A stretch of DNA of 64,000 nt from Microbacterium sp. ProA8. Its GTDB lineage: Bacteria > Actinomycetota > Actinomycetes > Actinomycetales > Microbacteriaceae. Shown here piece by piece: positions 7,963 through 28,133 of the stretch. The stretch is from positions 3,286,001 to 3,350,000 of the forward strand of contig NZ_CP157000.1 in NCBI RefSeq assembly GCF_039905635.1, given 5' to 3'. The position numbers and the translations under genes were made by a program. Below the pieces are notes generated by a model that was not told where the DNA came from, did not search any database, and was given only the letters and a program-made list of their open reading frames with translations. Position 1 is the first letter of the stretch. Every line of letters begins with the position of its first letter.

Positions 7963-9201
7963 GTGACAGAACGCGCCCCGCTCACCCGTACGCCCTCGCT
8001 CTCCCGCAAGCTCAGCGCCATCGCCGAGTCGGCGACCCTCAAGGTCGATGCCAAGGCCAAGGCCCTGCAGGCCGCCGGCCGGCCGGTCATCTCGTATGCG
8101 GCCGGCGAGCCCGATTTCGCGACGCCGCAGTTCATCGTGGATGCCGCCGCCGAGGCGCTGCACAACCCCGCCAACTTCCGCTACACGCCCGCCGCGGGTC
8201 TGCCGGCCCTGCGCGAGGCGATCGCCGCGAAGACGCTGCGCGACTCCGGCCTCGAGGTCGACCCCTCGCAGATCATCGTCACCAACGGCGGCAAGCAGGC
8301 GGTGTACCAGGCCTTCCAGACCGTGGTGAACCCCGGCGACGAGGTGCTGCTGCCGGCCCCGTACTGGACGACCTATCCCGAGGCGATCGCCCTGGCCGAC
8401 GGCATCCCCGTCGAGGTCTTCGCCGGTGCCGATCAGCACTACAAGGTGACCGTCGAGCAGCTCGAGGACGCCCGCACCGACCGCACGGTCGCGCTCGTGT
8501 TCGTCTCGCCGTCCAACCCGACCGGGTCGGTGTACACCCTCGAAGAGACGCGGGCGATCGGCGAGTGGGCCGTCGAGCACGGCATCTGGATCATCACCGA
8601 CGAGATCTACCAGAACCTCGTCTACGCGCCCGACGGCTCGGACGCTCCGGTGAAGGCCGTCTCGATCGTGGAGGCGGTTCCGGATGCCGCGGCCCAGACG
8701 ATCCTCGTCAACGGCGTCGCCAAGACCTACGCGATGACCGGCTGGCGCCTCGGCTGGATGGTCGGCCCCAAAGAGGCGATCAAGATCGCCGGCAACCTGC
8801 AGTCGCACCTGTGCTCGAACGTGAACAACATCGCGCAGCGTGCGGCGCTCGCGGCCCTCACCGGCCCGCAGGACGAGGTCGAGCAGATGCGCCAGGCCTT
8901 CGACCGCCGCCGCCGCACGATCGTGTCCGAGCTGTCGAAGATCGACGGCGTCGAGGTCCCCACGCCGCTGGGTGCGTTCTACGCGTACCCCGACGTGCGC
9001 GGCCTCCTCGGCCGCGAGTGGGCCGGTTCGACGCCGACCACGTCGCTCGAGCTCGCGGACCTCATCCTCGAGCAGGCCGAGGTCGCGGTCGTCCCGGGCG
9101 AGGCCTTCGGCCCCTCGGGCTACCTGCGCCTGTCGTACGCGCTCGGCGACGACGCCCTCCTCGAGGGCGTCCAGCGTCTGCAGCGCCTCTTCGCCTCGTA
9201 G
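7963..9201 (+). CDS. Aspartate-type aminotransferase (PLP, fold type I, class I)
   Basis: The 412-residue enzyme transfers an amino group between aspartate or another amino acid and 2-oxoglutarate through a PLP Schiff base. Visible family marks are AAGEPDF near residue 47, [24 protein letters not shown], the PLP lysine in [16 protein letters not shown], and the substrate-carboxylate arginine in LRLSYA. The layout is that of the bacterial Ib aspartate aminotransferases. The GTG start is chosen from the TACGCT hexamer 6 nt upstream (leaderless) and because family members begin close to this point. A strong terminator follows. Substrate preference cannot be fixed from sequence. Confidence 0.92.
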
Positions 9202-9217
9202 CCCCACACTCTCGAGC

Positions 9218-9252
9218 GAACGCGGATGCCTCGGTGCGAGGCATCCGCGTTC
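9218..9252 (+). terminator. Intrinsic terminator of the aminotransferase gene
   Basis: GAACGCGGATGCCTC pairs perfectly with GAGGCATCCGCGTTC around a 5-nt loop, followed by a T-rich stretch. Confidence 0.9.
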
Positions 9253-9311
9253 TTCGTTCGGTCCCGTAGGTCACCGCCTGCACCTCAGTCAGGTGTCCGC
9301 ACCCGCGATTT

Positions 9312-9622
9312 TGGCGAGTCGCCAATGGTGCGCTCCGAGCGCCGCGAATATGGCGAGCGCCAGGGAGCGCCGAGTACAGAGCTGAGCAAAGGGGGGCGTT
9401 CCGCCAAAAACGACCACCGCAGACAGCTCTGTTTGGCGAGTCGCCAAGAAGCGCGGAACGCCGAGCTGAGCAAAGGGGCGGCAGGCCCCTCGCCAAGAAC
9501 GACCACCGCAAACAGCTCTGTCTGGCGAGTCGCCAGGAAGCGCGGAACGCCGAGCTGAGCGAGCGCGGCAGGTCATTCGCCAGGAACGACCACCGCAGAC
9601 GGCCGAATATGGCGAGTCGCCG
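9312..9622 (+). repeat. Left array of TGGCGAGTCGCCA palindromes within 87-89 bp tandem repeats
   Basis: The 13-mer TGGCGAGTCGCCA occurs at 9312-9324, 9434-9446 and 9523-9535; a shortened form lies at 9351-9362 and a one-mismatch form at 9610-9622. The copies at 9434, 9523 and 9610 are 89 and 87 bp apart and sit in tandem repeats that also share a GAGCTGAGC block, a TCGCCARGAACGACCACCGC block and a CAGCTCTGT block. No credible gene lies between 9201 and 9743; the frames open across the array translate the repeat itself. Confidence 0.85.
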
Positions 9623-10700: not shown

Positions 10701-10893
10701 TGGCGACTCGCCAAGAAGCGCGCACCGCTGGCGTTTGTGGCGACTCGCCAAAACCACTCACGGAGGCCGGCAGCTCTGGCGACTCGCCAAAAACTCGGTG
10801 AAGTCGGGACCCCCCGACTGTTCGTGCGCACCGCCCGCTTCCGTGACTCGCCAGAAACGTCGTCCCGCAGCGGCATTTGTTGGCGACTCGCCA
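10701..10893 (+). repeat. Right array of TGGCGACTCGCCA palindromes
   Basis: Perfect 13-mers occur at 10701-10713, 10738-10750, 10777-10789 and 10881-10893, plus a partial GTGACTCGCCA near 10843-10853. Every copy has C at the centre, whereas every left-array copy has G. The first right copy continues with AAGAAGCGCG, the same flank as left copies, so the flank keeps its direction while the centre base is switched. Confidence 0.85.
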
Positions 10894-10971
10894 CGAACGC
10901 GCCGGCATTCGTCGACCCGTCGCCCGCTCGTTCGTCGTCCTTGGTGAGGACGATCAACGAAAGGACACCCC

Positions 10972-11100
10972 ATGGGACGGCGAATCGACCTGGTGATGGA
11001 GTGGGCGGCGGCGCTGGCGAACCTGATGCCCGCGCACCGCACGCTGCTGCTCGCAGACGACGAGGGGCACCGCGCGGACGGCGAAAGGGGCTGCGGCTAG
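10972..11100 (+). CDS. Possible 42-residue small protein
   Basis: An ATG with a good AAGGA ribosome site 7 nt upstream opens a 42-codon frame that encodes an amphipathic helix-like N-terminus (RRIDLVMEWAAALANLM) and a charged tail. Its TAG stop overlaps the TAG stop of the convergent murB gene within the palindrome CTAG. I do not recognise it. The ribosome site argues for expression; the short length and the neighbouring repeat array argue caution. Confidence 0.35.
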   Translation: MGRRIDLVMEWAAALANLMPAHRTLLLADDEGHRADGERGCG

Positions 11101-12233
11101 AGCTCCACGTTGACCAGCACCGGCTCGGGCTGCAGGATCAGCCCGAACTCGGACTGCACGCGGCCCTGGATGAAGCGGGCGAGCTCGGCGAGCTCGGCGG
11201 CGGTCGCCGTGCCGCGGTTCGTCAGGGCGAGGGCGTGCTTCGTCGACAGGCCGGCACGCGAGCGGGGCAGCTTGAAGCCCTTGCGCACGCCGGCGTGCTC
11301 GATGAGCCATCCGGCACTGACCTTGACATCGGACTCGACGGTCGGCGCCGGCGGCACGTAGCCGTCGAAGCTCGCGAGCGGGATGACGAGCACCGGGTCG
11401 AGGTCGGGGTGCACCGGCCAGCGCGGGCACTCGTCGGGGAGCGTGCGGGCGAAGGATGCCGACACCACCGCGTTCTGGAAGAACGAGCCCGCACTGTACG
11501 TGTCGGGGTCGTCGGGATCGAGCACCATCCCCTTGCTGCGGCGCGTCTCGAGGATGCGCTCGCGGACCCACGCCAGTGTCACTTCGTCGTCGGGCCCGAG
11601 CCGCAGCGCGGTGCGCAGCTGGTCGCCGGCGATGCGGCGCGCCCCATGGCCGATCTCGGGGAGGTCGAGGGTGACCGTCAGGATCACCGCCCGCCGCGCG
11701 GGCGCCGAGCCGTAGTGGTGCTTCAGCACCGACGTGCGGAAGCCGAGCCCGAGCTCGGCGGCCGGCACCGTCGAGACCTCGCCGGTGGACTCGTCCAGCA
11801 GCTCGACTTCACTGAGCGTCTGAACGATCTCCTGGCCGTAGGCGCCGATGTTCTGCACGGGAGCGGCGCCGACGGTGCCGGGGATCCCCGACATCGCCTC
11901 GACGCCGCCGAGGCCCTCGGCCACCGCGTAGGCGACGAGCGCGTCCCAGTCGTGGCCCGCCTGCACGCGCAGGCGCACACGTCCGGCCAGGGGCGACGGC
12001 ATCCGTTCGATGCCGTTCGTGAGCACGCGCACCACGGCGCCGTCGAACGGCTCGTCACCGGCGAGCAGGTTCGAGCCGCCGCCGAGCACGAGCCACTCGT
12101 CGCCGGACGCCCAGACGTCGCGGAGGGCGTCGACGAGCTCGTCGGTGGTGGGCGCGTCGATCATGCGGGTGGGCGTGCCGCCGGTGCGCAGGGTCGTGAG
12201 CCGCGACAGCGGGATCGGGGTGACGTCGGGCAT
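11097..12233 (-). CDS. murB: UDP-N-acetylenolpyruvoylglucosamine reductase
   Basis: This 378-residue flavoenzyme reduces the enolpyruvyl group of UDP-GlcNAc-enolpyruvate with NADPH to give UDP-MurNAc, a committed step of peptidoglycan synthesis. The FAD-binding GGGSNLLAGDEPFDG segment (about 50-64), the SGIPGTVGAAPVQNIGAYGQE segment and the catalytic serine region YSAGSFFQN are all present, and FRTSVLK replaces the tyrosine-bearing loop of the E. coli-type enzyme. It sits 3 bp downstream of a MaoC-type dehydratase gene, an arrangement common in Actinobacteria. Confidence 0.95.
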   Translation of the reverse strand: MPDVTPIPLSRLTTLRTGGTPTRMIDAPTTDELVDALRDVWASGDEWLVLGGGSNLLAGDEPFDGAVVRVLTNGIERMPSPLAGRVRLRVQAGHDWDALVAYAVAEGLGGVEAMSGIPGTVGAAPVQNIGAYGQEIVQTLSEVELLDESTGEVSTVPAAELGLGFRTSVLKHHYGSAPARRAVILTVTLDLPEIGHGARRIAGDQLRTALRLGPDDEVTLAWVRERILETRRSKGMVLDPDDPDTYSAGSFFQNAVVSASFARTLPDECPRWPVHPDLDPVLVIPLASFDGYVPPAPTVESDVKVSAGWLIEHAGVRKGFKLPRSRAGLSTKHALALTNRGTATAAELAELARFIQGRVQSEFGLILQPEPVLVNVEL

Positions 12234-12236
12234 GCG

Positions 12237-12650
12237 TCAGATCGTCCGCACGCGCACCTGCGCCTTGACCAGCACCGTCGCGCCGTTGAACGACACGGTG
12301 AGGTCGACGCGCGCCGACTCGTCGTCGACGGCGCCGACCTTCGCGACGACGGTCACGTCGGCTCCGGTCTCGGCGTCGACCACGACGGGCTTGGTGAACC
12401 GGACGCCGTAGTCGAGGATGCGGCCGGTGTCACCGAGCCAGGGCTCGATCGTGCCGACGGCGAGGCCCATCGTGAGCATCCCGTGGGCGAGGACGCCCGG
12501 GAGCCCCACGGCGGCGGCGACGTCGTCGCGGTAGTGGATGGGATTGAAATCCCCGGATGCCCCGGCATAGCGCACGAGGGACTCCCGCGTGAGATGCACC
12601 GTGCGCTCGGCGACGACGTCTCCGACGGTGAGGTTCGTCAGCGCGCTCAC
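12237..12650 (-). CDS. MaoC-like (R)-hydroxyacyl dehydratase, HadB-like subunit
   Basis: The 137-residue hot-dog-fold protein carries the hydratase 2 motif ASGDFNPIHYRDDVAAAVGLPGVLAHGML, with the catalytic Asp and His. It overlaps the HadA-like gene by 4 bp, and in mycobacteria the corresponding HadA/HadB subunits form the beta-hydroxyacyl-ACP dehydratase of type II fatty acid synthesis. In an organism without mycolic acids the role is probably a general fatty-acyl dehydratase; that is inference. Confidence 0.85.
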   Translation of the reverse strand: MSALTNLTVGDVVAERTVHLTRESLVRYAGASGDFNPIHYRDDVAAAVGLPGVLAHGMLTMGLAVGTIEPWLGDTGRILDYGVRFTKPVVVDAETGADVTVVAKVGAVDDESARVDLTVSFNGATVLVKAQVRVRTI

Positions 12651-13259: not shown

Positions 13260-14066
13260 TCACGCCCGGCGCGGACGCCCGCGCCAGGCCCGCAGCGCCA
13301 TCTGCACGGCGATCACCACGAGGTAGACGGCGAACAGCGCGTTGGCCACGAACGGGTCGAGGAGCACCGCGGCCCACGCGCCGAGCGCCGTCGTCGTGCA
13401 CGCGGCGACACCCACGATCGCGGCGGCGACGAGGTCGACGTTGCGTCGACGCATGTTGCCGACAGTGCCCGACACGGCCGTCGGGATCATCATGAGCAGC
13501 GAGGTCCCCTTGGCCACGAGGTCGCTGGTGCCGAACAGCACCATGAGGGCGGGGACCACGATGATCCCCCCGCCCACGCCGATGAGGCCCGACAGGATGC
13601 CGGTGACCACGCCCAGGGCGACCAGTGCGGCGCCGCTCAGCACGGTGAGGGTGAGCTCGGCGTCGCGCGACGGGATCACGACGAAGAGGCTCACGATCAC
13701 GGCGACGAGGAACCCGACGAAGGCCCACCGCAGCACCGTCAGCGACAGTCGCGGGAGCAGCCACGTGCCGATCTGCGCGCCGAACACGGCGCCGGCCGCG
13801 AGCAGCAGCGCCGGGATCCAGGCCACCGAGCCGTGCACGGCGTAGGAGATCACGCCCACGGCCGCCGTCGGGACGATCGCCGCGAGCGACGTGCCGGCGG
13901 CGAGGCGCTGGTCGAAGCGGAGCAGCAGCACGAGGAAGGGCACGATCACCGTTCCGCCGCCGACGCCGAACAGGCCGGAGAGCAGCCCTGCGAGCAGTCC
14001 GATCCCGACGCAGACGAGGTAGAAACGGAGGTCGTGCGGAGGGCGCTCGGTTTCGGGCGCGGTCAT
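13260..14066 (-). CDS. TauE/SafE-family membrane permease
   Basis: The 268-residue protein has eight hydrophobic segments and two copies of the family signature, GLLSGLFGVGGGTVIVP (N-terminal half) and GILSGLIGVGGGIIVVP (C-terminal half), which mark the sulfite/sulfonate exporter TauE/SafE fold. Members move small organic or inorganic sulfur anions, but assignments are weak and no sulfur gene lies nearby. Its ATG overlaps the stop of the DUF2510 gene by 4 bp, so both are one transcript. Confidence 0.88.
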   Translation of the reverse strand: MTAPETERPPHDLRFYLVCVGIGLLAGLLSGLFGVGGGTVIVPFLVLLLRFDQRLAAGTSLAAIVPTAAVGVISYAVHGSVAWIPALLLAAGAVFGAQIGTWLLPRLSLTVLRWAFVGFLVAVIVSLFVVIPSRDAELTLTVLSGAALVALGVVTGILSGLIGVGGGIIVVPALMVLFGTSDLVAKGTSLLMMIPTAVSGTVGNMRRRNVDLVAAAIVGVAACTTTALGAWAAVLLDPFVANALFAVYLVVIAVQMALRAWRGRPRRA

Positions 14067-14929
14067 TCGTACGAGAGGTCGTCGATCACCCACGCGCCGT
14101 CGGCCTGGACGAGCGTGTAGTAGTACACCGTCGAACCCGGCGACGGGTCTGCCGGCTCGCCGTTGGCGTCGACGAGTGCCGTGAACGTCTCATTCGTCGT
14201 CACAGCGATCTCGTCGCCCAGAGTCTCGACGTCGGTGATCGTGACCTCGTAGTCCTCGAAGTTCTCGTCGAAGCGGACGGAGTCCTCTTCGAAGGTGACG
14301 CAGTCGGTGAAGCCGCTCTGGGTGCGGAAGTCTTCGGTGGTCGAGGCGGTGAACGTCTCGCAGTCGCCGTCCTGCCAGGCCTCGTCGTACAGCTCGACCG
14401 TGGCGACCGCTGAGCGCTCGTCGTCGGACTGGGCGCCGCCGGCCTGGCTGGAGGACGAAGTGGCCGAGAGGAAGAGCAGCGGGATGACCACGGCGGCCGC
14501 GATCACGATGCCGAGCAGCACCACGCCGAGAACGACCCAGACGATCCAGAGCTTCGACTTGCGCGGCTCGGTGGCTGCGGTGAATCCTCCGCCGGCAGGC
14601 GCACCGGGCGCACCGGGGTACATGCCCTGCGGGTATCCCGGGGCGGCAGGCGGATACTGCTGCGCGGCGGGGTAGCCGGGCTGGGCGGCGCCGTCGGGCT
14701 GGCCGGCCGGTCCGGGGACCGCGCCCGCGTCGACCTGCGCGGCGGTCTCGCTCGCTCCCACCGGCTGCTGCTGCTCGAATCCGAGCTGGGCGGCGACGAT
14801 CTCCGCCTCCGTGGGGGCCGGCGACGACTCGGCGTCGGGCTGGGCGACGTGCTCCGTCCACTGCGTCCCGTCCCACCAGCGCAGAGCGCCGTGACCGTCG
14901 TCGTACCAGCCGGGAGGAGTCGTCTTCAT
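14063..14929 (-). CDS. DUF2510 domain membrane protein with extracytoplasmic domain
   Basis: The 288-residue protein begins with a DUF2510 motif (PPGWYDDGHGALRWWDGTQWTEH, residues 5-27 region), continues with a Gln/Pro/Gly-rich cytoplasmic linker, one membrane helix around residues 130-155, and an extracytoplasmic domain of about 130 residues with two cysteines that resembles DUF4878/NTF2-like lipoprotein domains. Function is unknown; DUF2510 proteins are common in Actinobacteria envelopes. The ATG at 14929 follows TAGGGT by 6 nt and is therefore a leaderless start; an upstream TTG is rejected. Confidence 0.8.
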   Translation of the reverse strand: MKTTPPGWYDDGHGALRWWDGTQWTEHVAQPDAESSPAPTEAEIVAAQLGFEQQQPVGASETAAQVDAGAVPGPAGQPDGAAQPGYPAAQQYPPAAPGYPQGMYPGAPGAPAGGGFTAATEPRKSKLWIVWVVLGVVLLGIVIAAAVVIPLLFLSATSSSSQAGGAQSDDERSAVATVELYDEAWQDGDCETFTASTTEDFRTQSGFTDCVTFEEDSVRFDENFEDYEVTITDVETLGDEIAVTTNETFTALVDANGEPADPSPGSTVYYYTLVQADGAWVIDDLSYE

Positions 14930-14935
14930 TGTCAA

Positions 14936-14941
14936 ACCCTA
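14936..14941 (-). promoter_or_regulatory. Leaderless -10 hexamer TAGGGT
   Basis: TAGGGT on the minus strand, 6 nt before the ATG at 14929. Confidence 0.6.
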
Positions 14942-15071
14942 TCGCCGCGCCCAGCGCCCGCCCACAGCGAGCCACAACTCCGCATGGACCGGATGTCACG
15001 TCGAGCCGTTCGCCGGATCGGCACCGTTCGCGTCCGTCGCAGTGCCCGACGAGGAGGAGTCGAGGCCCGCT

Positions 15072-20201: not shown

Positions 20202-21842
20202 TCAGTGCGGAGACCGGAAGGCCGTGAAGAACCGGTCGCGGAAGGCATCCATCCGCCACACCGGTGAGTCGGCGGCGGGCTGCAGACCCGGCTCCCAGCC
20301 CCACGCTGTGATCGCGTCGAGCACGGCGGGGTCCTTCGTGATGATGCTGATCGGCACGTCGCGGTCGGCATCCTCTCCGCTGACGATCGCAGCCGGCTGA
20401 TGATCGCCGAGCGCGACGACGACCAGGTTCGAGTCATCGACGTTCTCGAGGAACGAGAACATGGCGCCCAGGGCGTATTCGATCGAGAGTCCATAGAACC
20501 GCCGCACTGTCTTCGGGTCCTCCCAGACCTCATTCGCGGGTCGGCTCGCCTCGGGCTGCCCGGCGAAGATCGAGCCGTCTCCGATCTGCGACCACGCGAC
20601 GAGCTCCGGCAGCGGGGCCCACGGCGTATGCGACGAGACCAGGTCGATCTCGGCCATCACCGGTTGGCCGGCAACGGCGAGCTCGTGGTCGGCGAAGTGC
20701 TTCCACGTGTACTGATCGGGGATGCGCGCGTATCCGAACCGGGGCCCGCGATAGCCGACGTTCGTCGCGTCCAGCAGTGTGCCGAACCGGTAGAAGTCCC
20801 GACCGACCGGCCAGTCCTGCGTGTTGGACGGCACGTCGCTGACCGTCCGCCACCCGCCGGCTGCGAAGGCACCGCTGAGCGTCAGGCGGTCGCTGCCCAC
20901 CACCTCGGTGTAGACCGTCTGCGAGTCGATCCAGACTCCCGTCTGCAGCGTCGCGTGCGCGAGCCAGCTCGCACCGCCGTAGGTCGGCGAAGTCAGCCAG
21001 GCGCTCTCGGCGACATACCCTTCGGCGGCCAGCGTGCTCTCGCCCCGGCGCAGCAGCGCGTTGACGCCGTCCGACACGCCGTCGCCCTCCAGCGCGACCC
21101 TGCCGTAGCTCTCGATGAACGCGAACACGACGTTCTTGCCTCGGAGGGCGGTGAGCAGCTGGTCCGCGTCGACCTCGGCGAACGGGTCGTCGGCGATCGC
21201 CGTGGCGACGACCTCCCGCGCGTGCAGTGCAGCGACGGTCCGCGACACCGCCGAGCCGATGGCCCCGGTGGATGCCGCAGCCGCCGACGGGTTGGGCATG
21301 CCCAGCGGTGGTGCCAGGGCGGCGACGGCGACCCATCCGGCGGTCATGGCGGCGAGCGCGGCGCGGCCCCGTCCTTCGTCCCTGCGCACCGCGGCGTCCA
21401 CGCGCAGCGCGGCCCACGCGAGCGCGGTCGCCACCCCCGCGACCAGGACGGCCGCCGCAGCGACGAGGGCGGTCGCGGGTGCCGCGCCGATGGCCGCCGC
21501 GACGACCCCGTACGCGTCGCCGAGCTGCTGCCAATCGAGGGGCACGAAATGGATGCCGAGCGCGGCCTCGTAGCCGACATCGATGCCCGCGAGCACCACC
21601 GCCAGGCAGACGAACAGCCCGAAGGCGGCCGCGAGCACGATGCGCGGCCGGGCCCACGGCACGAGCGCGAGGACGAGGAGGATCACGATCGACTCGACCG
21701 GTATCCGCAGCAGGGCGAGCACCGACCCTGCGACCAACGCCCCGGGTACGAGCGGCAGGACGAGAAGCACGGCGACGGCTGTGGCGACCGCGAGGCGGCC
21801 CCGCCATGCCCGCGACCCCGCGCCGGCGAGCGGACGGTTCAC
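20202..21842 (-). CDS. Membrane alkaline-phosphatase-superfamily enzyme (sulfatase/LTA-synthase-like)
   Basis: The 546-residue protein has about five membrane helices (first 210 residues) followed by a large extracytoplasmic domain of the sulfatase/alkaline phosphatase fold: a metal-binding strand NVVFAFIESYGR near residue 237, a region with the probable nucleophile threonine (SPTYGGASWLAH), and the metal ligands in ALGDHQP near residue 497. Relatives transfer phosphoglycerol, phosphoethanolamine or cleave sulfate and phosphate esters outside the membrane. It is the last gene of the seven-gene overlapping operon; the GTG start overlaps the RibD-like gene's TGA by 4 bp. It may add or remove a polar group on the lipid that the operon builds. 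Confidence 0.75.
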   Translation of the reverse strand: MNRPLAGAGSRAWRGRLAVATAVAVLLVLPLVPGALVAGSVLALLRIPVESIVILLVLALVPWARPRIVLAAAFGLFVCLAVVLAGIDVGYEAALGIHFVPLDWQQLGDAYGVVAAAIGAAPATALVAAAAVLVAGVATALAWAALRVDAAVRRDEGRGRAALAAMTAGWVAVAALAPPLGMPNPSAAAASTGAIGSAVSRTVAALHAREVVATAIADDPFAEVDADQLLTALRGKNVVFAFIESYGRVALEGDGVSDGVNALLRRGESTLAAEGYVAESAWLTSPTYGGASWLAHATLQTGVWIDSQTVYTEVVGSDRLTLSGAFAAGGWRTVSDVPSNTQDWPVGRDFYRFGTLLDATNVGYRGPRFGYARIPDQYTWKHFADHELAVAGQPVMAEIDLVSSHTPWAPLPELVAWSQIGDGSIFAGQPEASRPANEVWEDPKTVRRFYGLSIEYALGAMFSFLENVDDSNLVVVALGDHQPAAIVSGEDADRDVPISIITKDPAVLDAITAWGWEPGLQPAADSPVWRMDAFRDRFFTAFRSPH

Positions 21843-22588
21843 GGGCGTTCGGCGGCGACCGGCTCCCGCCCGGGTTCGGCGCTCTCGGGCTCGAGCATGC
21901 CGAACCGGTCGGAGAGGGCGTAGCGCAGCAGCACCACATCGCCGATCCGGCGGGTGTCCGCGAGCCGGGCCCGGCGCGAGGCGGTCCAGGGGAACGCTCC
22001 CGATCGCACGACCCGCGGCGCGCGGTCTTCACCGACGAAGAACGGCGCGACGACGAGATGAAGCTCGTCGACGAGGTCCGCGCCGAGGAACTGCGTCAGC
22101 ACGGTGCCGCCGCCCTCGACCATGAGGCTCCGGACGCCGCGGTGCGCCGCGAGATCGTCCAACAGCGCGGCCATCATGACGCAGTCGTCGCCGAGTCCGA
22201 CGACGATCGCGCGCTCGCCCAGCCGTTCCTGCAGCTGCGCCGCCCGGGACTGCGGGCAGTAGACGATCCGCGGCCCCTCCCCCGTCGTGAAGAAGGCGGC
22301 GTCGGCGGCCAGGTCGCCGCTCGAGGTCACCGTCACCTTCACGGGAGACTCCCGGCGCCCGGAGGCGAGCCGGCGCGCGCGCCGCGCGGCGTCCCGCACT
22401 AGCAGCCGCGGGTTGTCTCGGCGCACCGTCGAGGCGCCCACCATGATCGCGTCGTGCAGTGAACGCACATCGTCGACGCGGTCGAGGTCGGCCGCGTTCG
22501 ACATCGCCAGCCGGTGCGGCTCAGCGCTGTCGAGATAGCCGTCGATCGACATCGCGCAGCTGAGGGTCACGTAGGGTCTCTCGCTCAT
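21839..22588 (-). CDS. RibD C-terminal (dihydrofolate-reductase-like) family reductase
   Basis: The 249-residue protein has the RibD_C/DHFR fold: YVTLSCAMSIDGYL at the N-terminus, DAIMVGASTVRRDNPRLLVR near residue 46, and VEGGGTVLTQFLGADLVDELHLVVAP near residue 150. Relatives reduce the ribosyl group of pyrimidine intermediates in riboflavin or methanopterin synthesis with NADPH. No deaminase domain is fused. The ATG follows a strong GAGGAGGAG ribosome site. It overlaps its neighbours on both sides by 4 bp, so its substrate is likely made or used by the same operon rather than by riboflavin synthesis. Confidence 0.85.
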   Translation of the reverse strand: MSERPYVTLSCAMSIDGYLDSAEPHRLAMSNAADLDRVDDVRSLHDAIMVGASTVRRDNPRLLVRDAARRARRLASGRRESPVKVTVTSSGDLAADAAFFTTGEGPRIVYCPQSRAAQLQERLGERAIVVGLGDDCVMMAALLDDLAAHRGVRSLMVEGGGTVLTQFLGADLVDELHLVVAPFFVGEDRAPRVVRSGAFPWTASRRARLADTRRIGDVVLLRYALSDRFGMLEPESAEPGREPVAAERP

Positions 22589-23526
22589 ACGGGTCTCCTC
22601 CTCTCGATCATGCTCCTCCGGCGAGACGAACGGAAGCGGTCCCCCAGGAGGGCCACGGCACCCGGCGCGACGGCGACGATCGTGAGCACGCCGAACGCCG
22701 TGGAGACGGCGACGCCGGCGCCGGCGCCCAGCCCGGCGAGCGCGAACGCGGCGGCGGCGACGGCCTCGCGCGGCCCCCAGCCTCCGACATTGACCGGGAT
22801 CGCCGCAGCCGCGAGCACGATCAGAGCGACCACTGCGAGATCGGCCGGGTCGGCGTGGACGCCTGCGGCGAGCCCCGCCACCACGAACGTGGCGGTGTGT
22901 GCGGCCAGGACGACGACCGATGCCGCCGTGATCGCGAGCAGCGTCAGCGGCCGCGAGAGCACGGGCCGCAGCATCCGGTACTCGCGGGCCAGCGCGGCGC
23001 GCCCCCGCGGAGTGAGCGCCACGATGGCGATGCCGGCGACGATGAGCAGGGCGACCGCCCCGCTGATCCACGCGAGCGGGGCCAGCGGCGACGTCAGGCC
23101 GAGCGGCAGCAGGATCGCCAGCGTGAGGACGAGCTGCACGAGCTGCCCGGCGATGCGCTCGGCCGCCACCGCGCGGGCAGCGAGATCGAGGCGATCGTGC
23201 ATGCGTCCCTGGACGTACGCGCGCTGCACGTCGCCCACAACGCCGCCGGGCAGCACCATGTTGAGGAACTGCGACCGGTAGTACGCGGCGAAGGCGTCGC
23301 CCCAGGCGAGCGGCAGCCCGAATCCGGTCGACATCATCCGCCACCGCCAGGCCGCCGCAGCGGTGGCGACCGCGGCGAGCGCGACGGCGGCGACGATCGT
23401 CCAGGGTGAGACCGCCGCGAGTCCGTCGAGAAAGGGCGCGGCGCCGACGACGGCGGCCGTCCCGACCAGCACCGCGAGCGCGGCCACGATCCGTGCACCG
23501 GATCGCAGACGCGGCGACATGCTCAT
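22585..23526 (-). CDS. YbhN/UPF0104 (lysylphosphatidylglycerol synthase TM-like) membrane protein
   Basis: The 313-residue protein has seven to eight hydrophobic helices and the family motif QFLNMVLPGGVVGDVQRAYVQ near residue 85, with VNVGGWGPREA toward the C-terminus. The family includes the flippase-like membrane part of MprF and is often coded beside glycosyltransferases. Here a role in flipping a lipid-linked intermediate across the membrane is plausible but inferred. The start overlaps the methyltransferase stop by one base (TGATG); a second ATG two codons on is possible. Its stop overlaps the RibD-like start. Confidence 0.82.
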   Translation of the reverse strand: MSMSPRLRSGARIVAALAVLVGTAAVVGAAPFLDGLAAVSPWTIVAAVALAAVATAAAAWRWRMMSTGFGLPLAWGDAFAAYYRSQFLNMVLPGGVVGDVQRAYVQGRMHDRLDLAARAVAAERIAGQLVQLVLTLAILLPLGLTSPLAPLAWISGAVALLIVAGIAIVALTPRGRAALAREYRMLRPVLSRPLTLLAITAASVVVLAAHTATFVVAGLAAGVHADPADLAVVALIVLAAAAIPVNVGGWGPREAVAAAAFALAGLGAGAGVAVSTAFGVLTIVAVAPGAVALLGDRFRSSRRRSMIERRRPV

Positions 23527-24368
23527 CACCCAGGCCACGCCAGCAGGTCCTCGTGCGACACCATCACCCGCAGCCGGCCGGCGGCCGCCTGCGCCAGGCG
23601 AAGCCGGCGGTACGCCTCCGCGTCGTCCACCAAGTCCGGCCGCCATTCGACGGCGGCGTCGATCCACCCGTCCAGCCATTCGCTCGTCAGCGCGCTGTCT
23701 CGTCCCTTCAGGCGCCAGGGTGTCGGCACCGTGCGGACGTTCCATCCGGCGGCGGCGAACAGCTCGGCCGTCGCGGCGACGGCATCGGGTCCCAGCATCC
23801 GTCGCCCGTCGGCGTCCCGTCGCTGGTGGTCGTCGAAGGCGGCGCTGAGGACCTGTTCGACGGCATCCAGCCGCGCGGACGGGCGCAGCGTCACGACGCC
23901 TGTGACGGTGAGGCTGAAGAGCGCGGGAGTGTCCGCGGCGACGCATGCCGCGACGATGTGCGCGGCCTCCGCATGCGTGATGACGTCGAGGAGGGCGGAT
24001 GCCGTCACCGCCGCTGCGCCGTCGAACGCATCCTTCGGCAGCTCGGCGAGGTCTTCGACGACGACGTCCGCGTCGATCCGACAGCCATCGGCGTCGACGA
24101 CGGCATCGAGGTCCACGTGCTCGACGATGTCGGCGTCCCCGTCGCGCAGCACCCAGCGCTGCCGGCCAGGCAGCTGCGGTGCGAGCCAGCGGGTCATCGA
24201 GCCGGTGCCCGCGCCCAGGTCGTGGAGCACGAGGGGGGCGGCCGCGCTCGGGCGACGGGCGGCGAGCAGCCGGCCGAGTTCCCGGGCGAGCTCCGTCGAC
24301 CGCGCGGCGTCGTCGGCCGGCGCCCGCAGTGCGAGCCAGTCCGGTGTCGCCGTCGACATCGAGGTCAT
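23526..24368 (-). CDS. Class I SAM-dependent methyltransferase
   Basis: The 280-residue protein carries the SAM-binding motif I as LHDLGAGTGSMTRWL (about 48-62), an acidic residue after the next strand, and the motif DVVVEDLAELP. The C-terminal half (LFAAAGWNVRTVPTPWRLKGRD) is typical of class I methyltransferases of secondary metabolism. The ATG overlaps the glycosyltransferase stop by 4 bp. The acceptor is unknown; context suggests the operon's lipid or pteridine-like intermediate. Confidence 0.82.
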   Translation of the reverse strand: MTSMSTATPDWLALRAPADDAARSTELARELGRLLAARRPSAAAPLVLHDLGAGTGSMTRWLAPQLPGRQRWVLRDGDADIVEHVDLDAVVDADGCRIDADVVVEDLAELPKDAFDGAAAVTASALLDVITHAEAAHIVAACVAADTPALFSLTVTGVVTLRPSARLDAVEQVLSAAFDDHQRRDADGRRMLGPDAVAATAELFAAAGWNVRTVPTPWRLKGRDSALTSEWLDGWIDAAVEWRPDLVDDAEAYRRLRLAQAAAGRLRVMVSHEDLLAWPG

Positions 24369-25378
24369 GCCGCCTCCAGCACGTCGGCGACGCGCGCGAC
24401 GGCGTCGCTCCACGTCGGCAGGGTGGCGCGGGCCGTGAGTGCTTCGCGCCGCAGTCGGGCCCGCAGCGGCGGGTCCGACATCCATGCCTCCAATGCCCCG
24501 GCCAGTGCAGCGGGGTCGTCGGGCGGCACGACGAGTCCGCCGCCGCCGGTGAGAGCCTCGGGGATCCCGCCGGTGTCGGCGCCGATGACGGGCAGTCCCC
24601 GCGCCCGCGCCTCGCCGATGGCCATGCCCCAGCTCTCGACACGGGACGGTGCGACAAGCAGCGCGCTGCGCTGATACGCCTCGGCGAGCGCATCGTCGTC
24701 GAGCACGCCGGCGATGCTGACCCTCCCGTCGAAGGCGGCGGCACGGTCGGCGATGGTCGCCGCGAAGTCCGGGAACGGCTCGGCGGATCCGACGACGGCG
24801 CACGTCCAATCGGCGGTCGGCAGCCGCGCGAGCGCATCGAGCAGCGTGTCCTGACCCTTGTGCGGCGCCAGCACCCCGACGCAGAGCAGATCGTTCTCGT
24901 CGCGCGGCGTGACGGCGTCGGCCCGGTCCACGCCAGGAACGGCGACCGTGACCCGCGAGGGACCGACCAGCCCTCGTCGAGCCAGCTCGTCCGCGGTCCA
25001 GTGACTCGTCACGACCACGGCGCGGGCGACCCCCAGCGCTCGTCGCTCCGCCTCGGCCGCGGCATTCGTGGCATCGGGGAAGGCCGTGACCACCATGTGC
25101 GCGAGCAGCACCACGCGCAGGCGCGGCGCGTGCTCCTCGAGCGCGGCGGGCGTCCATCCCCCCACGAGTCCGTCCACCAGCACCAGGGCACCGTCGGGCG
25201 CATCGCGGAGAGCGGATGCCGCAGCCGCCGCATCCGCCACCTCCTGCGTCGTCACCTCCCAGCCGCGCGCGCGCAGTCCGTCCCGGATGTGCCGGTCGTA
25301 CACGTTGCCGCCGCTGACGCGACGGGGGTCGTCGACCCCTTCGGGGACGAGGAAGCGGACCGAGGGTCCGCTCGTCAC
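24365..25378 (-). CDS. Glycosyltransferase family 4
   Basis: The 337-residue protein has the GT-B fold and GT4 signatures: [13 protein letters not shown] near the N-terminus, [21 protein letters not shown] in the middle, and the nucleotide-sugar motif [29 protein letters not shown] in the C-terminal half, with E7-type spacing. It transfers a sugar from a nucleotide donor to an acceptor, here probably a lipid. GTG start overlaps the PTPS-like gene's TGA by 4 bp; the frame is open upstream only inside that gene. Confidence 0.87.
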
Positions 25379-25770
25379 AACGCCACCTCGTAGGAGGCCC
25401 AGGCGACATGGGACTCGTGCAGCGTCACCATGATGCCGGTCAGGGGCGACGCGCCGACCGCGCCGTCGCGCACACGCGCCGCGAGGCGGTCGCCCACGAT
25501 CTGGCACAGCCGCTCGGTCGTGGTGTTCAGCCCCTCGAAGTCCGGCTCGTCGTCGAGGTTGCGGTATGTCAGCGCGCCGACGATCTCGCGGACCACCTCG
25601 CTCGCACGGCCGATGTCCACCACGACGCCATCGGCGTCGAGCTCGTCGGCGCGGAAGGTCGCGTCGACCAGGAAGGTGGCCCCGTGCAGCTGCTGCGCCG
25701 GGCCGAAGACTTCGCCGCGCAGGCTGTGGGCGATCATCAGATGGTCGCGGACGGTCACGCTGAAGGTCAC
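25375..25770 (-). CDS. PTPS/QueD-like protein lacking canonical active-site residues
   Basis: The 131-residue protein aligns with 6-pyruvoyl-tetrahydropterin synthase/QueD over its whole length: H15 matches the first zinc histidine, LHGA (28-31) matches [14 protein letters not shown] (67-76) matches LDHHYLNDIP and E119 matches the substrate-binding glutamate. But the catalytic Cys is replaced by A25, the third zinc histidine by A31, and the catalytic Asp-His by T68-Y69. So it keeps the T-fold but probably not the QueD reaction. GTG start overlaps the dehydrogenase stop by 4 bp. It may bind a pteridine or catalyse a different step. Confidence 0.8.
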
Positions 25771-26840
25771 TTCGACTCCCTTTCGTCGCTCAGCGCCTCA
25801 CCGGCGCTGCTCCAATCGATCGTGTGGCACAGCTCGCCGGCCGTGCCCGCAGCGAGGGAGGCGGTGATCTCCGGCAGCTGTCGCCACGACGATCCTCCAC
25901 CCAGCAGCAGATCGAATGCGGGATCTTCGAGCAGCCGGAGCGCCACCGCCAGCCGGTCACGGGTGGTGCGGCTGCCACGGCGACGCGGTGAGACGGCGCC
26001 GACCTGGCTGGAGCGGATCGTCAGCCGGCGCGAGTGGAAGTCGGCGCCGAGCTCGATCGGCACGGCCCGGCTGCCGTACCAGCTGGCGACGACCACCTCG
26101 CCGTCGGTGGGCGCCAGCCGCAGCGCGAGCTCGAGTCCCGTGCCGCTGCCGCTCGCTTCGACGACGACGTCCGGCTCGAGCGGCTGGTCCTCCGCGTCCG
26201 GGCCGAGCACGAACCTCACCCCGAGGGCTCGAGCGATCGCCGCCTTCGCCGGATCGACGTCGACGAGCGTGACGTCGGCGCCCGGGATGCCGCGCGCCAC
26301 CCGCGCGATGGCGCATCCGATCATGCCGGCCCCGACGATGACCACGCGGTCGCCGATCAGTGGGGCGGCGTCCCACAGCACATTGACCGCCGTCTCGACC
26401 GCGCCGGCCAGCACCGCTCGACGGGGCGGGACGGATTCCGGCACGGCGACGAGCGCATCCGCCGCGACCACGTACCGCGACTGGTGCGGGACCAGGGCGA
26501 ACACCGTGCGGCCCTGCAGCGATGCCGGGCCCTCCTCGACGGTGCCGACATTGAGATAGCCGTACTTCACCGGGAAGGGGAAGTCGCCGCCCTGGAACGG
26601 CGCTCGCATGCGGGTCCGCTCCGACTCCGGCACCTCGCCGCGGGCGACGAGCGCCTCGGTGCCGCGGCTCACACCGGTCCAGAGCGTCCGCACCGACGCC
26701 TCGCCCTCGGCCGGGCGTGGCAGTCCTTCGGACCGGAACTCGCCCTGCCCGGGACCGATCGTCCACCAGGCGATCGCGGCATCCGGAGCATCACTGTGAA
26801 CCGCGGCGGGTGTCTGCGTCGTGTTCCCGGTGACCGCCAT
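25767..26840 (-). CDS. Zinc-site-less MDR dehydrogenase (BchC-like)
   Basis: The 357-residue protein is a medium-chain dehydrogenase/reductase with a Rossmann motif [20 protein letters not shown] near residue 180. The usual zinc ligands (Cys of GxCGTD, GHE) are missing; the N-terminus instead has [17 protein letters not shown], like the bacteriochlorophyllide dehydrogenase BchC group. It should oxidise or reduce an alcohol/ketone with NAD(P)H. The ATG at 26840 was chosen as the residues before it are arginine-rich and overlap the divergent gene. It is the first gene of the seven-gene operon, and only 20 bp separate it from the divergent CDP-alcohol transferase. Confidence 0.82.
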
Positions 26841-26860
26841 GAGGAATACACGGAGCGCGC

Positions 26861-27700
26861 ATGGGAAAAGTTCAGTGGTCCGCAGGGCTTTTCGCCGCAT
26901 GGGCTCAGCCGTGGTGGTGGGTCGCGGCCGGGACGGTGGGCCTCGTCGCGATCGGCGTGGCCGTGCCGCTGTCGGCCTTGGCCGTGACGGTGGGGTTCGC
27001 CTACCTGGTCGTTTCGACGATGCTGCTGACCGTCGCGCTGCGCCGTCGGGGCGCCGGTCGGTTCGGACCTGCGAACGCCGTCACCGCCACCCGCTCGACG
27101 CTCGTCGGCCTCGTGACCGCCCTGACGGTCGCTTCCCTGGAGGGCACGACCGGGCCCACGCCGCCGGACGCTTCGCTCGACGCGCCGGCGGCGGGCGGTG
27201 GGGCCGTGGGGACCACCGTTCTGCTGGTGTCTCTCGTGGCCTGCGCGCTCGCGCTGGACGGGGTGGACGGGTACGTCGCCCGCCGCACCGGCAGCGAGAG
27301 CGAGCTGGGCGCCCGCTTCGACATGGAGGTCGATGCCTTCCTGCTGCTCGTGCTGTCCGTGTACGACGCGCGGTATGTGGGCTGGTGGGTGCTGTCGATC
27401 GGTCTGCTGCGCTACGCCTTCGTCGTGGCGGGCGCGCTGCTGCCCTGGATGCGCCGGACCCTGCCGCCGAGGTACTGGCGCAAAGTGGTCACCGCGGCCT
27501 CGGGGATCGCCCTCGCGGTCGTCGCGGCGCAAGTGCTGCCGTCGACCGCCACCCTGGCCGTCGCCGCCGCGGCCCTCTTGCTGATGCTCGAGTCGTTCGG
27601 CCGCGACGTCACGTGGCTCGTGCGGATGAACCTCCGCAGCCGCGCCCTCGTTTCCCTCGAGAAGGCGTCGACGACCTCACCTCCACCGGAGAGCAGATAA
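26861..27700 (+). CDS. CDP-alcohol phosphatidyltransferase family enzyme
   Basis: The 279-residue membrane protein carries a perfect CDP-alcohol transferase motif DG-x2-AR-x8-G-x3-D-x3-D near residues 131-153 (DGYVAR then GARFDMEVD), and six membrane helices. It joins a CDP-activated lipid or alcohol to an alcohol acceptor, releasing CMP. ATG has GGAG 5 nt upstream. It is divergent from, and within 20 bp of, the MDR dehydrogenase, which fits one pathway: this enzyme would make the phospholipid-type anchor that the minus-strand genes modify. The exact substrate is unknown. Confidence 0.88.
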   Translation: MGKVQWSAGLFAAWAQPWWWVAAGTVGLVAIGVAVPLSALAVTVGFAYLVVSTMLLTVALRRRGAGRFGPANAVTATRSTLVGLVTALTVASLEGTTGPTPPDASLDAPAAGGGAVGTTVLLVSLVACALALDGVDGYVARRTGSESELGARFDMEVDAFLLLVLSVYDARYVGWWVLSIGLLRYAFVVAGALLPWMRRTLPPRYWRKVVTAASGIALAVVAAQVLPSTATLAVAAAALLLMLESFGRDVTWLVRMNLRSRALVSLEKASTTSPPPESR

Positions 27701-27704
27701 GACC

Positions 27705-28133
27705 ATGACCGAATCCACAGAGACCACCGGACGCGTGCTCTGGACCATGCGGATCCTCAGCGCGATCGCGCTCCTCGCGGCAGGTGGGATCCACCTGTTC
27801 CTCGTGTTCAACGGCGTCGGCGGCTTCCTGGGGGTGATGTTCGTCCTCAACGCCGTGGCGGCGCTCGTGCTCACGATCGGGATGGTGGCGCTGCACGGCC
27901 GCCTGTTGCAGGTGGCGACGGTGCTGAGCCTGCTCTTCCTCATCGCCACCCTCCTCGCGCTCATCCTCGCGCTGACCGTGGGGCTGTTCGGCATCACCTC
28001 CACCTGGGACTTCACCCTCGTGCCCGAGACCATCATCGTCGAGTCCATCGGGGTCGTGATCCTGGCGATCACGACCGTGCTCGTGCTGCGCCGGACCCCG
28101 GCCACAGCGGGAACGAGGCGGCAGGGCGTCTGA
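27705..28133 (+). CDS. Four-helix small membrane protein
   Basis: A 142-residue protein with four hydrophobic helices (about 15-35, 43-62, 68-92 and 105-128) and no recognised motif beyond AAGGIHLFLVF in the first helix. It begins 5 bp after the CDP-alcohol transferase and ends before a strong terminator, so the two are one transcript. Possibly an accessory subunit; function unknown. Confidence 0.7.
   Translation: MTESTETTGRVLWTMRILSAIALLAAGGIHLFLVFNGVGGFLGVMFVLNAVAALVLTIGMVALHGRLLQVATVLSLLFLIATLLALILALTVGLFGITSTWDFTLVPETIIVESIGVVILAITTVLVLRRTPATAGTRRQGV

Follow-up and report, generated by a model that had tools for sequence, protein, structure and literature searches.

What product would call for a pyrimidine reductase of the RibD_C type, a relative of 6-pyruvoyltetrahydropterin synthase (PTPS), a glycosyltransferase and a CDP-alcohol phosphotransferase from a single cluster of genes? 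These genes lie at positions 20202–28133 of a 64,000-nucleotide stretch of the genome of Microbacterium sp. ProA8 (NZ_CP157000.1, positions 3,286,001 to 3,350,000), which we will call the window. A first-pass annotation, made from the sequence alone, had listed nine open reading frames in this cluster, and we found all nine. With moderate confidence, we propose that the cluster is a biosynthetic operon of the SCO6650–SCO6655 type (locus tags of Streptomyces coelicolor), which would tap the first steps of riboflavin synthesis and make a decorated product that is probably joined to a lipid.

The genes form a conserved unit

The seven genes on the minus strand are joined by six successive overlaps (4, 4, 1, 4, 4, and 4 bp), and two genes on the plus strand begin 20 bp away, so the genes are packed as the first-pass annotation had described. 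Through the gene for the PTPS-like protein, we found 112 loci in other genomes and in the window. We kept the 86 loci in which the sequence extends 7.5 kb or more to both sides of this gene; in the 26 that were left out, a contig end is near. (The gene caller that we used on the loci trims starts and fails in low-GC loci.) The PTPS-like protein is present in 86/86 of the well-covered loci by construction. The medium-chain dehydrogenase/reductase (MDR) and the GT4 glycosyltransferase are also present in 86/86, the YbhN-like membrane protein and the CDP-alcohol enzyme in 82/86 each, and the methyltransferase in 81/86. GTP cyclohydrolase II is found in 55 of these loci, RibD_C in 48, and a creatininase-family protein in 43. 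Wherever they are found, the genes for the MDR, GT4, methyltransferase, and YbhN proteins are on the same strand as the PTPS gene, whereas the CDP-alcohol gene faces the other way in 74 of the 82 loci that have it. The pairwise identities of the MDR, PTPS, GT4, methyltransferase, YbhN, and CDP-alcohol proteins correlate (r = 0.83–0.96), and a tree of five proteins from 57 of the 112 loci groups them mostly by taxon. The same tree places locus L037, from the window's family, beside L077, from another family, which may reflect a transfer between families.

The genes do not scatter independently in relatives, which was the outcome that the first-pass annotation had set against its own idea: the linkage counts and a census of the class keep the set together. 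Among the 394 genomes in the census, the PTPS-like protein is found in 57, the methyltransferase in 49, and both in 48, where 7.1 would be expected; these counts are not corrected for relatedness, and the methyltransferase was scored in at most 6 candidates per genome and PTPS in at most 10. The methyltransferase occurs without PTPS in one genome, and PTPS without the methyltransferase in nine. In the 48 shared genomes, the two genes are within 2 kb on the same strand (44 genomes), 3.9–4.4 kb apart on the same strand (3 genomes), or 5.3 kb apart on opposite strands (1 genome). The gene set is a real, old, and conserved unit, and not a chance arrangement.

In the window's family, the PTPS-like protein is found in 20 of 150 genomes (including the window's), and an MDR match adjoins it in 20/20 loci. 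The cluster is also found in Streptomyces-like genomes and in others of the phylum; the named relatives are Streptomyces, Micromonospora, Actinomadura, Nocardioides, Amycolatopsis, Nakamurella, Tetrasphaera, and Asanoa. The PTPS-like protein is 92% identical in Microbacterium yannicii and M. psychrotolerans. A simple count of genomes with a PTPS match (95 of 396) overstates the spread of the cluster, because it includes canonical relatives that have no MDR or GT4 nearby. We considered the PTPS relatives of nine genomes, from five families of the phylum, as extensions of the cluster and rejected them: in 9/9, no MDR or GT4 match is near. Two of the nine have a match to GTP cyclohydrolase II at a distance of about 5 kb; in one of them there is also a partial RibD match (36 bits). 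Among 30 loci from a wider search, L053 (family f48) has no cluster gene beside PTPS. In locus L023, from a genome that is 86% complete, the MDR and AP-fold matches (8443–9464 and 13386–14998) are split between frames, due to sequencing error or decay. In genome G548, each of two contigs (C111 and C134) carries a cluster-type PTPS match.

Two supply modules point to the first riboflavin intermediates

The strongest functional clue is the partition of GTP cyclohydrolase II, which is encoded in many cluster loci outside the window's family, into two forms. At the position of Tyr105 of E. coli RibA (from an alignment to 2bz0), the 69 classified cyclohydrolases of the 112 loci have Tyr (21), Met (45, including the Streptomyces-like locus L074), His (2), or Cys (1), and one more cyclohydrolase is unclassified. 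We take the replacement of this Tyr to be the mark of an enzyme that stops at 2-amino-5-formylamino-6-ribosylamino-4(3H)-pyrimidinone 5'-phosphate (AFRPP, or FAPy). The loci with the Tyr form have RibD_C (21/21) and no creatininase (0/21); the loci with a non-Tyr form have a creatininase-family gene (48/48). (We confirmed these identities with Pfam for two of the creatininases and for several of the RibD_C proteins.) A match to the cyclohydrolase is absent from 42 of the 112 loci, the window among them, and 33 of these 42, again including the window, have RibD_C.

Copies elsewhere in the genomes differ from the cluster copies. Four Streptomyces-like genomes have Met in the cluster copy and Tyr in the copies elsewhere. 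Among 22 matches to GTP cyclohydrolase II from 12 genomes, these 4 cluster copies have Met, 16 have Tyr (including the cluster copy of G353), and 2 are unclassifiable, being partial matches from the Rubrobacter family. The window's genome has a single GTP cyclohydrolase II, which is outside the cluster and has Tyr. SCO6655 is reported to be a FAPy-forming GTP cyclohydrolase II that has Met instead of Tyr, and it presumably lies in this cluster.

The RibD_C protein of the window scores 148 bits against PF01872 (cut-off 24.1), and it is the highest of 15 RibD_C matches in its genome (148.1 vs. 144.8 bits). It does not reach the cut-off of any NCBIfam model; its best match is to an archaeal reductase (TIGR01508, 133.5 bits, below the cut-off of 186.45). 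Its predicted activity is that of a reductase which probably acts on a GTP-derived ribosylaminopyrimidine.

According to PMC9478397, GTP cyclohydrolase II opens the ring and then deformylates, and BrbF, a protein of the creatininase family, deformylates AFRPP to 2,5-diamino-6-ribosylamino-4(3H)-pyrimidinone 5'-phosphate (DARoPP). A creatininase paired with a cyclohydrolase that does not deformylate would then do the work of the canonical enzyme, and so both supply sets would feed DARoPP into the same cluster. Given the activity of BrbF and the partition of cyclohydrolase II with RibD_C or creatininase, the branch to this cluster probably leaves the route from GTP to riboflavin at its first intermediates. 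Taking the linkage together with the published enzymology, we consider entry from GTP via DARoPP to be very likely. PMC9478397 describes the AFRPP-making enzyme of BrbF-containing bacteria as still undiscovered; a GTP cyclohydrolase II with its Tyr replaced is a candidate kind of enzyme for this step.

In locus L094, from Streptomyces, the creatininase and RibD_C genes overlap by 4 bp. The apparent RibD match beside YbhN in this locus is a separate RibD_C gene on the minus strand. We considered a protein family of about 150–216 amino acids (f10) as a deformylase that would accompany the non-Tyr cyclohydrolases; this was rejected because the family is the creatininase gene read in antisense. 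The creatininase genes of L094 (14080–14799) and L074 (13375–14139) are antisense to conserved-looking open reading frames of up to 216 amino acids. Because automatic gene callers take the antisense frame, databases may hold false families at creatininase genes.

The PTPS-like protein has lost its catalytic residues

The PTPS-like protein is the only PTPS in the window's genome and is the ortholog of SCO6650 (PDB 3d7j, E = 3e-55). The place of the catalytic Cys is taken by Ala25 in 108/108 aligned loci (of 109 examined), and that of the catalytic His by Tyr69 in 107 of 109 loci, so that neither the Cys nor the Asp-His pair of PTPS and QueD is present. Of the three zinc-binding His of the AAH and HxH motifs, two are kept (His15 and His29), and the third is replaced by Ala31 (108/108 aligned loci of 109 examined). 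Glu119, near the C terminus, is kept in 109/109 loci; we take it to be the residue that anchors the pterin in the PTPS family. By comparison, the canonical relatives examined from the nine genomes have the Cys, the HGH motif, and the Asp-His pair (8/8). Three Rubrobacter versions keep HGH and have lost the Cys and the Asp-His pair; by their sequences, they seem to be an intermediate state. Because the catalytic triad and one zinc His have been lost, the database name "6-carboxytetrahydropterin synthase" is unfit for this group.

Besides the PTPS-like protein, three more enzymes could modify the pyrimidine or its derivative. The MDR is only distantly BchC-like (46.5 bits against the bchC profile, far below the cut-off of 291). 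Its motifs SRGTE and KYGY are conserved over 111 loci and presumably stand where the zinc ligands of MDR proteins are expected. The methyltransferase matches Methyltransf_25 (PF13649) with 22.5 bits, below the cut-off of 27; its predicted model (predicted local distance difference test, pLDDT, of 94.3) has SAM methyltransferases as its nearest folds (template modeling scores, TM, of about 0.4–0.6). The nearest proteins in PDB to the GT4 are Tll1590, then 3c4q/3c48, and 3oka (phosphatidylinositol monomannoside mannosyltransferase). We take 3c4q/3c48 to be MshA, whose acceptor is presumably a polyol phosphate; for 3oka, the name points to phosphatidylinositol mannosides as acceptors.

The membrane proteins suggest a lipid

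The CDP-alcohol phosphotransferase has the complete motif DxxDGxxARx8GxxxDxxxD. Its D133, D136, G137, A140, R141, G150, D154, and D158 are invariant in 24 sequences, and the motif is conserved over 104 loci. (For the alignments we took 28 AP-fold entries out of 45, 24 CDP-alcohol entries out of 75, and 26 methyltransferases.) A search of PDB with the sequence of this protein alone gave nothing useful. Its profile matches choline/ethanolamine and serine phosphotransferases (E values of about 1e-6 to 1e-5); the matches to AF2299 and to a glycerol-phosphate enzyme are weak (E = 0.01–0.03). The YbhN-like protein scores 36.3 bits against TIGR00374, below the cut-off of 43.2.

The third membrane protein has no significant match in Pfam, NCBIfam, or PDB, whether the protein or its alignment was searched, and so has no sequence-level membership in the LtaS or EptA families. 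Its AlphaFold model (pLDDT 86.6, predicted TM score 0.77) has membrane helices and a domain of the alkaline phosphatase (AP) superfamily. The best Foldseek hits are LtaP/LtaS, followed by EptA, GacH, and MCR-1, with E values of about 1e-8 to 1e-6 and modest TM scores (0.35–0.49 for the first hits). The motifs ESYG, TSPTxGG, SSHxPW, and GDHQP are conserved over 44 loci. In LtaS and EptA, the AP-superfamily domain works outside the cytoplasm. To judge from its model, the AP-fold protein is a probable extracytoplasmic phospho-group transferase or phosphatase.

In locus L038, a gene of the inositol-monophosphatase family lies between the RibD_C–methyltransferase–PTPS–MDR block and the GT4 gene, which it overlaps by 4 bp. 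An FkbM-like methyltransferase (identified by eye) also sits within the set of this locus (both genes in 10864–12572), and no AP-fold match was found there. L039 has only the FkbM-like gene, with no inositol-monophosphatase-family gene at that place. The inositol-monophosphatase-family gene of L038 would fit a needed dephosphorylation; it is possibly another phosphatase for the AP-fold step.

Proposed pathway

GTP cyclohydrolase II, which is encoded elsewhere in the window's genome and in the cluster in many relatives, would convert GTP to DARoPP. The RibD_C reductase would convert the ribosyl group of DARoPP to ribityl, without deamination. The MDR, the altered PTPS-like protein, and the methyltransferase would then convert the pyrimidine, perhaps by closing a pterin ring; a pteridine ring in the product is possible, but we would not count on it. 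The GT4 would add a sugar. In Actinomycetes, the CDP-alcohol phosphotransferase would most likely join the product to a lipid, YbhN would then take it through the membrane; outside, a phospho-group would be removed or transferred by the LtaS/EptA-like enzyme. We infer the order of these steps, all of the substrates, and the attachment to a lipid from the gene content. A lipid-linked or exported product is likely, because a CDP-alcohol transferase, YbhN, and an LtaS/EptA-like fold are all in the cluster, and a lipid-linked product is the simplest reading for Actinomycetes, towards which we lean, if narrowly. The first-pass annotation had suggested a lipid made from a pteridine or ribityl-type intermediate: cyclohydrolase II and creatininase in the relatives strengthen the pteridine-or-ribityl half, and the lipid half is as much a matter of inference as it was.

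A more specific version, which strikes us as unlikely, is a membrane-anchored pterin glycophospholipid whose pterin ring is made without GTP cyclohydrolase I, and which would be a new kind of membrane lipid, redox-active or light-absorbing. Here the RibD_C reductase would convert ribosyl to ribityl and the MDR would oxidize C2' to a ketone, which together equal an Amadori rearrangement; the PTPS-like protein, with its T-fold, would hold the intermediate and close the ring on the 5-amino group; and the product would be methylated and glycosylated, linked to a lipid through the CDP-alcohol enzyme, and turned to the outside.

Several observations weigh against the proposed operon, beginning with its supply. 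Of the 48 non-Tyr loci, just 4 have a RibD_C match over the score cut, and 44 are below it (although one of these 44, L094, has RibD_C by Pfam). As the partition of Tyr and non-Tyr forms follows the tree, it may reflect one or two events rather than 69, and the creatininases of the cluster may not belong to the BrbF clade. RibD_C and the AP-fold protein co-diverge less with the other proteins (r = 0.52–0.68 and 0.65–0.81). The cluster is also patchy: PTPS is in 0 of the 11 other genomes of the same genus that were listed in the census. On the membrane side, no more than 35 of the 86 well-covered loci have the AP-fold gene, and no matches to the CDP-alcohol, YbhN, or AP-fold proteins were found in the Rubrobacter loci L079–L081. 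This last absence is weak evidence, because the same search missed the methyltransferase of L080 and L081, which was found by Pfam. These two loci, from family f18, have the order RibD_C–MDR–PTPS–GT4–methyltransferase, and the PTPS of L081 is 73–75% identical to Rubrobacter proteins. (Among the search loci L050–L069, an MDR match is beside PTPS in 19 of 20, all 19 from f18; the one from another family has none.) The four flanking Rubrobacter proteins that we scanned are an acyltransferase, a selenium-binding protein, a major facilitator superfamily transporter, and a Na/Ca exchanger. The Rubrobacter core may make a soluble compound.

So we also considered that the product might be a soluble or exported pyrimidine or pterin, glycosylated and methylated, with no lipid; YbhN would be its exporter, and the CDP-alcohol and AP-fold proteins would serve a neighboring lipid task. 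Such a product would explain why the five-gene core stands alone, as far as detected, in L080 and L081, and why the AP-fold gene is so often missing. However, this seems doubtful given how regularly YbhN and the CDP-alcohol gene accompany the core, the latter mostly on the opposite strand. Both also co-diverge with the core (r = 0.83–0.92) and persist in the small-genome loci L038–L040.

The other alternatives are known pathways. That the cluster is a second route to a known pterin of the dihydroneopterin or biopterin type, in an ordinary cofactor pathway, would fit a member of the PTPS family and the GTP-derived precursor supply of the relatives. But we think it improbable: the catalytic Cys, Asp, and His of PTPS are gone, GTP cyclohydrolase I is present in 12/12 genomes tested (including the window's), and, going by the established pathways, a GT4, a CDP-alcohol transferase, and a methyltransferase would be superfluous for such cofactors. 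An auxiliary operon for riboflavin synthesis would account for RibD_C in the window's cluster and for GTP cyclohydrolase II in relatives. We give this little credence, as the RibB, RibH, and RibE families were not seen among the annotated neighbors, and elsewhere in the window's genome, a strong RibD_C match lies about 1.5 kb from the GTP cyclohydrolase II gene. The name 6-carboxytetrahydropterin synthase would suggest the queuosine or another 7-deazapurine pathway, and the PTPS-like protein does score 43.7 bits against the QueD profile. This is below the QueD cut-off (89.25), the active site is lost, and no radical SAM or QueC-like family was seen among the neighbors that were annotated (not every neighbor was), so we regard this explanation as close to untenable.

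Gene calls and neighboring genes

Six of the proteins (MDR, PTPS, GT4, YbhN, RibD_C, and CDP-OH_P_transf) have Pfam matches above the cut-offs, in agreement with the first-pass family calls. The calls of a methyltransferase and an AP fold are upheld by predicted models, with no sequence match above a cut-off. The ninth protein, a small membrane protein, has no match in Pfam or NCBIfam and is the loosest member of the cluster: in relatives, its gene stands at one or the other end of the cluster or is separated from it by several kb. In the loci that we examined, matches were seen only in Microbacteriaceae and in two Nocardioides loci. The gap between the divergent genes is tight for two promoters plus leaders; the transcripts may be leaderless, or the starts misplaced. 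A gene for a rhomboid-family membrane protease (PF01694, 19577–20185) is convergent with the AP-fold gene and ends 16 bp before its stop.

Features of the cluster, with positions in the window
Feature	Positions	Strand	Basis
Membrane enzyme with an LtaS/EptA-like (alkaline phosphatase superfamily) fold	20202..21842	-	predicted model, Foldseek, conserved motifs
RibD_C-type pyrimidine reductase without a deaminase domain	21839..22588	-	PF01872, 148 bits
YbhN/LPG_synthase_TM flippase-like membrane protein	22585..23526	-	PF03706, 101.6 bits
Class I S-adenosylmethionine (SAM)-dependent methyltransferase	23526..24368	-	PF13649, 22.5 bits (below cut-off of 27); model; genome census
GT4 glycosyltransferase	24365..25378	-	PF00534, 100 bits; PDB matches
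PTPS-like T-fold protein, ortholog of SCO6650	25375..25770	-	PF01242, 85.5 bits; PDB 3d7j, E = 3e-55
MDR dehydrogenase, distantly BchC-like	25767..26840	-	PF00107 (ADH_zinc_N)
Divergent intergenic region (20 bp) between the start codons of MDR and CDP-alcohol transferase	26841..26860	.	sequence
Class I CDP-alcohol phosphotransferase	26861..27700	+	PF01066, 47.9 bits; complete motif
Small membrane protein, loosely associated	27705..28133	+	open reading frame; no family match

Meaning and comparison with known systems

The gene set itself is not new, since public genomes already show it and two of the orthologs have been studied singly. A search of the open-access literature found no paper on the cluster, its product, the assignment of its precursor, or the two interchangeable supply modules, and so does not contradict the first-pass statement that no pathway with this set has been characterized. 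Reading the genes as a cluster offers a concrete role for those two S. coelicolor proteins, SCO6650 and SCO6655. It also predicts a new use of a riboflavin precursor, for which two alternative enzyme sets would lead from GTP to DARoPP. Because the cluster has been kept in Streptomyces, Micromonospora, Microbacterium, and small-genome Microbacteriaceae, and its core in Rubrobacter, the pathway should make something useful.

The AP-fold protein resembles LtaS, EptA, and GacH in that its model has membrane helices and an AP-superfamily domain, but it has no significant sequence match to them and the TM scores are modest. The pathways to phosphatidylinositol mannosides and mycothiol, with the enzymes PgsA1, PimA, PimB', and MshA, are similar in combining a CDP-alcohol transferase with a GT4, and the PDB matches of the cluster's GT4 (3c4q/3c48 and 3oka) are to proteins of this kind. 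Unlike in those pathways, no gene for inositol-phosphate synthesis was seen among the annotated neighbors, and the supply genes of the cluster are those of the riboflavin pathway.

The archaeal and rhizobial entry into riboflavin synthesis (GTP cyclohydrolase III, or ArfA, with ArfB; BrbF) is alike in that FAPy is deformylated by a separate amidohydrolase, which for BrbF is of the creatininase family; ArfB has no sequence similarity to BrbF (both points from PMC9478397). In contrast, the clusters described here draw on a cyclohydrolase from the GTP cyclohydrolase II family, and their route goes on to glycosylation and probably to membrane steps, not to riboflavin.

The closest comparison is with the SCO6650–SCO6655 region of S. 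coelicolor, where the PTPS-like protein is orthologous (SCO6650 is PDB 3d7j). At the Streptomyces loci, a creatininase accompanies a GTP cyclohydrolase II of the non-Tyr form, and an AP-fold match is mostly missing, whereas the window's cluster holds RibD_C and the AP-fold gene but lacks a cyclohydrolase. But the Streptomyces loci and the window share the genes MDR–PTPS–GT4–methyltransferase–YbhN, in the same order and in the same direction, with a divergent CDP-alcohol gene.

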